56,463 nucleotides of DNA from a virus. The stretch covers positions 1 to 56,463 of IMG/VR virus record IMGVR_UViG_3300025400_000023. One strand, 5' to 3'. A model generated the notes under the pieces. That model was not told where the DNA came from. It did not search any database and saw nothing but the letters and a program-made list of their open reading frames with translations. Below, in pieces: positions 1,295 through 4,162 of the stretch (positions are counted from its first letter, which is position 1; the number at the start of each line of letters is the position of its first letter). The translations under genes were made by a program, and so were the position numbers.

Positions 1295-1416
1295 AAAAAA
1301 ACCGCTTAGTGATGTATCCCAGTGGTTGTCTTGCTTAATAACTTTCCAACGTGTTATTAAGTAAGATGGTATACATCTCTAAACGGTCTTTGTACATCAC
1401 CAACCACAGCAATGTA
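1295..1416 (-). ncRNA. ~120-nt structured small RNA with candidate pseudoknot and terminator
   Basis: The transcript starts about 6-7 bases after a perfect extended -10. First comes a hairpin, GTACAT/ATGTAC (1417-1412 with 1397-1392), with a 14-base loop containing GTGGTTG (1407-1401). Then follows a long hairpin: 1387-1367 pairs with 1321-1301 (18 Watson-Crick pairs, one G-U, two mismatches), and an inner 13-position stem, 1365-1353 with 1342-1330, has one mismatch. An asymmetric bulge on the 3' side holds CAACCAC (1328-1322), the exact complement of the first loop's GTGGTTG. Eight T residues (1301-1294) end it, so the long hairpin doubles as an intrinsic terminator. The only overlapping open frame is a poor 72-codon one. 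I match it to no known family. Confidence 0.65.
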
Positions 1417-1421
1417 CGTTC

Positions 1422-1430
1422 ATTATAACA
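1422..1430 (-). promoter_or_regulatory. extended -10 promoter of the small RNA
   Basis: On the minus strand this reads TGTTATAAT: perfect TATAAT (1427-1422) with the TG-n extension. No convincing -35 is present, as expected for this promoter class. Predicted transcription start is near 1415-1416, exactly where the first hairpin of the small RNA begins. Confidence 0.65.
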
Positions 1431-1608: not shown

Positions 1609-1899
1609 TTACTTACAATTCTTCAGAATGTCAAGGGCTTCCCCTATGCTATTCACAATAGCCAACATTCCACCTTCCCACTCGTCAAAAAATTTCTGCT
1701 CTGCTGGCGTCAGACTTCGGGCAGATGTTGTTTTATCCCCATCTTTTACCTCCATCAGGATAGTGTAACCACGGTATCCCACCAGTAAATCTGGTATCCC
1801 ATTGCCTTGGCTGATGATCCGAACTGTTGCGCCACAGGCCCTCAAAGCCTCAACAATCTCATTTTGATTGGCATCAATTCTGTTTGCGTATCTGGTCAT
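1609..1899 (-). CDS. VRR-NUC-type PD-(D/E)XK nuclease
   Basis: A 96-residue protein from ATG 1899. A GTG at 1926 would add nine residues but sits inside the opposing promoter. The core reads RIDANQNEIVEAL, then GIPDLLVGYRGYTILMEVKD with the PD...E-x-K active-site layout, then LTPAEQKFFDEW. That pattern is typical of stand-alone phage VRR-NUC nucleases, a family related to Holliday-junction resolvases that cut structured or branched DNA. It probably helps resolve replication or recombination intermediates before packaging. It stands alone, divergent from the recombination module and closed by its own terminator. Neither candidate start has a strong ribosome site. Confidence 0.8.
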   Translation of the reverse strand: MTRYANRIDANQNEIVEALRACGATVRIISQGNGIPDLLVGYRGYTILMEVKDGDKTTSARSLTPAEQKFFDEWEGGMLAIVNSIGEALDILKNCK

Positions 1900-1907
1900 A
1901 TAATATG

Positions 1908-1936
1908 TTGACTTTGTTGAATACACCTGTTATATT
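1908..1936 (+). promoter_or_regulatory. sigma70-type promoter of the recombination module
   Basis: TTGACT (1908-1913), a 17-base spacer, then TATATT (1931-1936) preceded by TG-T. This is a near-consensus promoter firing rightward, with transcription expected near 1943 and the first ribosome site at 1955-1960. It overlaps the 5' end of the divergent VRR-NUC gene, so the two genes may be co-regulated. Confidence 0.75.
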
Positions 1937-2365: not shown

Positions 2366-3224
2366 CAAGTTCAACTTACCTGAAACCATCATCAACGTCA
2401 TCAAGCGCCCGACCTATTCCAAGGGTAAAGCACATATCTCTGTGACCGAACTGATGACTGCACCTCAGATCGTGCTCCTAAAGCGCAAGCATTGGAATGA
2501 GATCGAGCAAGACGCCAGTGAAATGGTTTGGCAGATCTTTGGTTCTGCCATCCACGCAGTACTGGAGCACGGCAAGAGCGACAACCATGTGATCGAGCAG
2601 CGCATCCACGCCAAGGTAGATGGGTGGGACATATCAGGAGCTATTGATCTACAAGAAATCACACCTGACGGAATCATTATTTCTGACTACAAGACCACAG
2701 GCGCTTGGGCGGTCATGAATGAGAAGGACGAATGGCATCAGCAGCTTAATGTCTATGCTTGGCTAGTGGATAACGTCAAGAACGACAAAGTAATCAAGCT
2801 ACAAATCATTGCCATCATCAGGGACTGGTCGGCTAAAGAGGCGCAGATTAAGGAAGGCTATCCCCAGTCTCCCATTGTGACCATAGACATCCCTTTGTGG
2901 AGCATGGAGGAGAGGATTAACTATATCAAGCGTAGGATAAAGATGCATTCAGACGCCCAGTTCAATGCCGATATGGGCGAGGGTTTGCCTGAATGTGGCG
3001 AGAAAGATATGTGGGAAAAGCCTACATCATGGGCATTGATAAAGGAAGGAGGAGTAAGAGCAAAGAGGGTATACGACAACGAGGGAGAGGCAAAGCTGGC
3101 TCTGACCAAGGGCTACATCATAGAACACAGACCTGGCGAGAGAACGAGATGCAAGTCCTACTGTCAGGTTTCCCAGTTCTGTAATCAATATCAAACCTAT
3201 TTAAAGGAACAACAAAATGGCTAG
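2352..3224 (+). CDS. PD-(D/E)XK exonuclease, RecB/Cas4-like, with four-cysteine cluster
   Basis: A 290-residue protein. Active-site features in order: IHAVLEHG near 68-74, SGAIDL with D99, SDYKTTG with D112-x-K114, and QQLNVYAW near 130-137, the usual layout of RecB-family nucleases. Cysteines at 215, 267, 271 and 277 form a cluster like the Fe-S or zinc staple of AddB/Cas4 enzymes. It probably resects double-stranded ends to feed the ERF annealing protein encoded just downstream. ATG 2352 has AAAGGAAAG ahead of it. The gene overlaps both neighbours by a few bases, indicating one operon. Confidence 0.85.
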   Translation: MQLTNKFNLPETIINVIKRPTYSKGKAHISVTELMTAPQIVLLKRKHWNEIEQDASEMVWQIFGSAIHAVLEHGKSDNHVIEQRIHAKVDGWDISGAIDLQEITPDGIIISDYKTTGAWAVMNEKDEWHQQLNVYAWLVDNVKNDKVIKLQIIAIIRDWSAKEAQIKEGYPQSPIVTIDIPLWSMEERINYIKRRIKMHSDAQFNADMGEGLPECGEKDMWEKPTSWALIKEGGVRAKRVYDNEGEAKLALTKGYIIEHRPGERTRCKSYCQVSQFCNQYQTYLKEQQNG

Positions 3225-3474
3225 ACCACCAATCGACTGGAAAAAAAGATGCGTAGAGCTTGAAGGGCAAGTCGCAGCTTTAATGCGTGATAAGGCAAAT
3301 TTAGAGAGAAATTGTTTCGAGCTATCGTTTTCACAATCAAACGCTAAGACCGAGTCAGAAAATCTTAAGGAAAAGAATACAAAGCTTTATGGAATCATTG
3401 AGTATCTAGAAGACCACATCCATACACTTAACTCAACAATAGAAGATTTAAGGAAACCAAATGAGCGTACATAA
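3217..3474 (+). CDS. 85-aa coiled-coil protein
   Basis: Begins MARPPIDWKKRC and continues as one predicted coiled coil (ELEGQVAALMRDKANLE, LKEKNTKLYGIIEYLEDHI). ATG 3217 follows AAAGGAACAACAAA, overlaps the nuclease stop by 8 bases and runs into the ERF start. No enzymatic motif is visible. Its place between the nuclease and the annealing protein suggests a bridging or oligomerising role in the recombination module, by inference only. Confidence 0.75.
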   Translation: MARPPIDWKKRCVELEGQVAALMRDKANLERNCFELSFSQSNAKTESENLKEKNTKLYGIIEYLEDHIHTLNSTIEDLRKPNERT

Positions 3475-4162
3475 AAAACTTATGGCAGTCAGATGCGATC
3501 TGCTGCGAACCAAACTGGAAAAGTCAGGACACAACAAGTTTGCTGGCTACAAGTATTTTGAGCTGGGTGACTTCATGCCAGCCACAATGGATTTGTTCTT
3601 CAAGCACGGCATCTGTGGTGTTGTTACTTATACACACGAGTACGCAACCTTACAGATCACAGACGTAGAAGACGGAACCATGATTGTGATTACCTCACCT
3701 ATGGCTACGGCTGCACTTAAAGGCGCACACGATATTCAGAACCTAGGAGCCGTTGAGAGTTATCAAAGGCGCTACCTTTGGATGACTGCGCTAGAGCTGA
3801 CCGAGAGCGATCCTATAGATTCAGCCGAGCCTATCAAAGATGTTCCAAAGCCAGTTGTAAGAACCCAACAGGATGTGGCTAGGGAAAAGTCTGCGGCCAA
3901 GAGTTCATATGTGCCGATAGAAGATCCATTTGCCATTCACATTTCTGTGGACCCAGAGGGTTGCACGGCTGAAGAGTTGAGCAAGGTTGTTATGGAAGCA
4001 ACAAAGATACAACTGGCCACGGCTAAATCTGTAGACGATGTGATGAAGATTTACCAAGTGAACAAAAAGATGTACGACTTGATAAAGGAAAAAGACGAGA
4101 GACAGCACGTTGCATTGCTAGGTCTTTTCAAAGAAACCAAAGATAGTTTAACCAAGGAGTAA
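3461..4162 (+). CDS. ERF-family single-strand annealing protein
   Basis: A 233-residue protein. Residues about 1-125 match the ERF superfamily: MAVRCDLLRTKLEKSGHNKF, GYKYFELGDFMPATM, then GAVESYQRRYLWMTALEL. ERF proteins coat single-stranded DNA as multimeric rings and anneal complementary strands in RecA-independent recombination and genome circularisation. The C-terminal third (from about 130) is a charged linker and helical tail that may bind partner proteins. It follows the exonuclease and coiled-coil genes directly, the common exonuclease-plus-annealase arrangement. Confidence 0.85.
   Translation: MSVHKKLMAVRCDLLRTKLEKSGHNKFAGYKYFELGDFMPATMDLFFKHGICGVVTYTHEYATLQITDVEDGTMIVITSPMATAALKGAHDIQNLGAVESYQRRYLWMTALELTESDPIDSAEPIKDVPKPVVRTQQDVAREKSAAKSSYVPIEDPFAIHISVDPEGCTAEELSKVVMEATKIQLATAKSVDDVMKIYQVNKKMYDLIKEKDERQHVALLGLFKETKDSLTKE

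Follow-up and report, generated by a model that had tools for sequence, protein, structure and literature searches.

A phage RNA predicted to join a covarying loop-to-bulge pseudoknot to an intrinsic terminator ahead of a conserved noncoding element

The H-type pseudoknot of the T2/T4 gene 32 mRNA consists of a short stem, a one-base first loop and a 7-bp second stem that abuts the first, and H-type pseudoknots formed in cis usually combine a single loop base, 7 bp and no base at the junction. The lambda 6S RNA, or tR' leader, is a short terminated phage transcript lying between a promoter and the downstream region, and Betaproteobacteria-1 is a small RNA (sRNA) family. No U-tract is known to follow stem II directly in a put RNA. 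In the phi29 packaging RNA and the bicoid 3' UTR, pairing takes place between molecules. HK022 putL and putR are promoter-proximal phage RNAs of about 70 nt, with two stem-loops and a triplex in stem I, that act on their own polymerase (PMC9378689), and loop-bulge dimerization of RNA is also known (PMC7357161).

Here, we describe an RNA encoded on the minus strand of a virus record of 56,463 bases, referred to as the window. The RNA occupies noncoding sequence flanked by a small nuclease gene, presumably VRR-NUC-like, and a set of leftward small ORFs (Table 1). All the elements named in the original prediction, which were an extended -10, the loop GTGGTTG, the bulge CAACCAC and eight T, were found on the minus strand where it had placed them, and loop and bulge are exact complements. 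Its 6-bp hairpin with a 14-base loop had to be redrawn, since comparison with relatives shows that the first hairpin (H1) has 9 bp, including two G-U pairs, and an 8-nt loop (U plus GUGGUUG). A longer hairpin (H2) follows, whose 7-nt bulge on the 3' side has every base engaged in the loop-bulge helix, and the RNA, with its own promoter and terminator, has a predicted length of about 120 nt, with the transcript start predicted within the first bases of H1. The window RNA folds at -48.2 kcal/mol, compared with -24.2 +/- 3.5 for shuffled sequences (z = -7.0; 0/200). In the main types, the loop reads pyrimidine-G-U-N5, leaving one base before the loop-bulge helix and none after it, suggesting an H-type pseudoknot with H1 as its first stem. 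This geometry is shared with the T2/T4 gene 32 pseudoknot (short stem, one-base loop, 7-bp abutting stem); that pseudoknot regulates translation of its own mRNA, whereas here the third loop holds a terminator hairpin.

Table 1. Coordinates and properties of the features in the window and in selected related loci (C, conserved noncoding element; B, second structured element).
Feature	Locus	Position	Strand	Remarks
Extended -10 promoter element	window	1432-1421	minus	TGTGTTATAATG; TG 1430-1429, TATAAT 1427-1422
H1, 5' hairpin	window	1417-1392	minus	GTACATTGC (1417-1409) / GTGATGTAC (1400-1392), 8-nt loop
Pseudoknot loop strand	window	1407-1401	minus	GTGGTTG; covaries with 1328-1322
Lower H2, 5' arm	window	1389-1367	minus	23 nt, about two helical turns; folding and alignment
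Upper H2 hairpin	window	1366-1329	minus	sequence and length variable among relatives
Pseudoknot bulge strand	window	1328-1322	minus	CAACCAC; Watson-Crick in 119/119 cells, 17 sequences
Lower H2, 3' arm	window	1321-1302	minus	folding and alignment
U-tract of predicted intrinsic terminator	window	1301-1294	minus	8 T; predicted RNA 3' end
Element C	window	1290-950 (approximate)	minus	conserved noncoding region directly downstream; 80-87% identity in nearest relatives
Element B	window	1522-1442	minus	
Element B	L086	4605-4709		
Element B, two copies	L205	2985-3076 and 3245-3349		
Small nuclease gene	window	1609-1926	minus	PHROG endonuclease match
ERF protein gene	window	3461-4162		Pfam ERF match
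Loop/bulge pair	L115			GTAGTGGA/TCCACTAC
Loop/bulge pair	L083			GTGGAAG/CTTCCAC
Loop/bulge pair	L086			GTAGTGA/TCACTAC
Loop/bulge pair	L108			GTAGGAA/TTCCTAC

Related loci were gathered through the ERF protein and the nuclease. In all, about 95 related loci have the same architecture; this count, like member counts here in general, includes near-identical contigs. Many relatives carry, between the nuclease gene and the conserved downstream region, a different sequence with the same layout: a hairpin at the 5' end is followed by a long one, bulged by about 7 nt on the 3' side, and then by a U-tract. With few exceptions, the bulge of these relatives is the complement of the first hairpin's loop (examples in Table 1). 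The lower stem has about 20 to 23 bp in most types, and its arm a length of about 20 to 23 in most members. In a MAFFT alignment of 17 members built without structure, every cell of the loop-bulge helix was Watson-Crick and none was G-U. Double changes occurred at five of its seven pairs, giving 43 compensatory cells, and the remaining two (G-C and U-A) were invariant. When the partners were slid against each other, pairing fell from 97% to 31 to 44%. On four of five measures for the whole structure, no shuffle out of 500 attained the level of the real alignment (on the fifth, 10 of 500 did). A covariance model built leaving out the loop-bulge helix was then used to align 86 distinct rows, 63 of which had all seven pairs, with 17 different words; rows selected for seven of seven pairs say nothing about a lack of G-U, a question for which the 17-sequence set is suitable. 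By eye, G-U pairs are apparently present in two more distant loci (L326 and L341).

Two further sets were gathered independently of loop and bulge. With a pattern describing the lower stem only, loop and bulge matched in the contigs holding both. With a pattern on element C alone, a bulged terminator-like hairpin was found upstream in 42 of 72 loci; among its 29 distinct hairpins, 26 had a complement of at least 6 nt, versus 8% for swapped partners, and the mean match was 7.2 for own and 4.2 for swapped partners. The original prediction had held that a seven-base match was unlikely by chance, and we estimate that a given 8-nt loop and 7-nt bulge would share a perfect 7-mer match with an a priori probability of about 1e-4. 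An ordinary terminator hairpin with a fortuitous loop-bulge match could be imagined, as terminators are common and a descriptor scan, which recovered more than 30 members, also gave a few weak chance matches; however, covariation in three separately gathered sets refutes this explanation, to which we assign practically no probability. Change of loop or bulge without covariation in relatives had been proposed as the observation that would speak against the pseudoknot, and complementarity was instead maintained. The loop-bulge structure is thus, judging from covariation, almost certainly real.

Between loci with 80 to 85% identity elsewhere, differences affect 57% of the variable pseudoknot pairs, compared with 28% of the pairs in H1 and 19% of those in lower H2; at higher identity, pseudoknot and H1 turn over alike. 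Either diversifying selection or a mere lack of terminator constraints may account for the faster turnover. Words that remain complementary while changing in this way would also be expected if the helix formed between two molecules, yielding dimers or rings like those of phi29 packaging RNA, which pairs through 4 bp, or bicoid mRNA, with the changing words giving each phage self-specificity. Loop-bulge dimerization has a precedent (PMC7357161), and a coarse rigid A-form helix model requires about four open stem pairs for cis pairing in the sub-type represented by L034. Against this, the same model finds the cis helix feasible in the window with three A-U pairs at the stem base (with the U-tract) open, and in the main type with one pair open. 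In addition, the one loop base, 7 bp and absent junction base are those usual for a cis pseudoknot, and the large terminase is related to those of many ordinary phages, which are not known to require a packaging RNA. We regard pairing between molecules as very unlikely. A first, stricter rigid-helix optimization, which gave no solution or longer distances, had indicated that cis pairing was impossible, a result overturned once contacts were relaxed and a few terminal pairs were allowed to open. Because cis pairing is then feasible, the modeling is not taken as evidence for multimers; as a hint, it leaves room for some tension between pseudoknot and terminator and for intermolecular pairing. 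The suggested competition between the pairing and the terminator stem has weak support: the helix draws on the bulge and can coexist with the stem as drawn, whereas the coarse model needs about three stem-base pairs open in the window.

Both ends of the RNA are accompanied by conserved signals. Upstream of H1, the promoter score of 74 distinct members averaged 10.1, compared with 6.8 for random stretches, and reached at least 9 in 81% versus 3%. In most members the -10 element ends 4 to 7 nt ahead of H1, which, for a sigma-70-type promoter, gives the appearance of a self-contained transcript. A -35 of the form TTGACA is frequent among relatives; in the window no matching -35 was found upstream of the -10, which fits an extended -10. 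The U-tract of relatives has on average 7.6 T of 9. The proposal that this is a small RNA unit of its own, with a pseudoknot between loop and bulge, is thus well borne out by covariation and by the conserved promoter and U-tract. Its further statement that the RNA resembles no known family also holds: using Rfam 15 with gathering and relaxed thresholds, no family matched it in the window, and none fell on it in relatives. We read it as a new, unnamed phage RNA family. It adds a well-supported case in which the sequence of a pseudoknot built into a terminator turns over while its pairing is kept.

The RNA is followed by element C in 94 of 98 loci; in most, C starts soon after the U-tract, and element B may intervene. 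A promoter score of at least 9 was found at the RNA/C junction in 0 of 88 cases and upstream of H1 in 76%. Since the RNA lies between a promoter and a promoterless C, its most likely role is that of a promoter-proximal terminator RNA limiting read-through into C, to which we give a probability of roughly 0.45. Transcription would start at H1 from the sigma-70 promoter, and the H1 loop would pair with the bulge on the 3' side of H2 in a 7-bp helix, forming an H-type pseudoknot with H1. Lower H2 and the U-tract would then act as an intrinsic terminator, probably releasing a short, stable RNA, about 120 nt long and structured at its two ends, so that only read-through transcripts would pass and C and the following early operon would be kept low; the pseudoknot may stabilize the short RNA and tune termination. 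The steps from promoter to terminator are suggested by conservation and covariation. The system offers a testable case of the effect of a nascent pseudoknot on termination. With the lambda 6S RNA it shares a short terminated transcript between promoter and downstream sequence; lambda, however, has no such pseudoknot, and no antiterminator protein or site was identified here. Against the gating role, a plain terminator needs no pseudoknot, no conserved antiterminator pairing was found, and C also occurs without the RNA.

The absence of such pairing concerns H1 with the lower 3' arm, where own partners gave -9.5 and swapped ones -8.8 kcal/mol, so that the alternative folds expected of an attenuator were not seen. 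Similarly, the rest of the phage loci showed no enrichment of the pseudoknot words (0.076 per kb versus 0.095 for swapped words), and the search thus gave no target for the loop in the phage. The complementarity to a site of the same phage that marks antisense immunity RNAs of the c4/CI type was absent both near and far. Since the words vary and match no nearby site, it appears that shape rather than sequence is kept. This would suit a free, trans-acting small RNA that binds a host or phage protein, such as an RNA chaperone or RNA polymerase, with C as a mere passenger. Its own promoter and terminator and its two structured ends agree with such a function, but the tight linkage to C, retained also beside other genes (L197 and L206), does not, and we consider this reading possible if rather unlikely.

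A role like that of put, in which the nascent two-hairpin RNA would act in cis on RNA polymerase and alter its response to later pauses or terminators, was also considered. As in HK022 putL (PMC9378689), two stem-loops lie close downstream of a promoter, whose early status we infer, and a P22 Cro match precedes the module in one group. The put RNAs are, however, about 70 nt long, whereas this RNA is about 120 nt with a U-tract after H2 in the measured members. Its own U-tract would release the transcript, and no shared sequence was seen, which makes a put-like action highly doubtful. In L283, L288, L289, L291 and similar loci, the P22 Cro match (nearly also one to YdaS) lies directly upstream of C or of the RNA and C together. 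The RNA and C may together make up a module for early control that is based on RNA and sits behind a cro-like gene or opens an early unit, positions at which nut or put sites and terminators are found in lambdoid phages. The changing loop-bulge word would then render the RNA of each phage self-specific, through terminator strain in cis or through intermolecular pairing; we deem this extended version decidedly improbable.

Element C, or a part of it, matched the Rfam family Betaproteobacteria-1 (RF02932) in seven related viral loci. The match lies downstream of the pseudoknot RNA on the same strand, directly in L009, L012, L013, L016, L034 and L080, and after an inserted ORF in L010. The C of the window itself fell below a match to the model and is joined to these loci through chains of blastn matches. 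The pseudoknot RNA itself is not a member of the family: the model leaves it uncovered, the matches fall in the C of relatives, and Betaproteobacteria-1 also occurs without it. None of the papers searched mentions Betaproteobacteria-1 RNA or RF02932, and the promoter-terminator RNA directly upstream provides a first context for this unexplained RNA. Folded alone on both strands, C showed no unusual stability. C was present without the pseudoknot RNA in Achromobacter, Thauera, Paraburkholderia and Ottowia genomes (two with little upstream sequence) and behind a P22-Cro-like gene in viral loci. Of the 72 C loci, up to 30 lacked it, a figure raised by members that the descriptor misses, such as L317; C therefore does not need the pseudoknot RNA. 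The inserted ORF of L010 (about 2950-3360, minus strand) appears by eye to encode an HNH-like endonuclease.

Carriers of the RNA are mostly uncultured phages. A blastn search against isolate phages and plasmids gave nothing useful except a match of 43 bases, within C, to MW202426.1. This phage, which comes from a Manatee Spring sample, turned out to carry the pseudoknot RNA (L197) and is the only named phage that does. A covariance search of 399 genomes of the order Burkholderiales gave 0 matches, which shows little given strict filters and a set without a positive control. Searching viral contigs for TATAAT, GTGGTTG and CAACCAC together gave 35 matches, apparently mostly chance. Two of the pattern-search contigs (L167, 157-262, and L176, 6364-6481, both plus strand) resemble the RNA in their loop-to-bulge layout, with GTGGTTG/CAACCAC ahead of a start codon but no U-tract, which may be chance.

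Several variants were recognized by eye. In L083, L003, L004, L088, L093 and L107, the RNA is branched, with the bulge strand after two small hairpins. In L009, L010 and L012, H1 is absent and the 5' end of the RNA apparently finds its complement in the apical loop of the terminator hairpin, and L265 and L268 have a longer pseudoknot of 10 bp (GTGACTGATA with TATCAGTCAC). Element B, which had no Rfam match, is a conserved structured element with a hairpin CGGGTTAGCGCCG followed by a hairpin CACTGCTTYATGTG within a variable outer stem. It lies before or after the pseudoknot RNA, is present in two copies in some loci, and is sometimes found just ahead of a start codon. Finally, a second TGTGATATAATG element in the window (822-811, minus strand) resembles the promoter of the pseudoknot RNA and precedes the leftward small ORFs.
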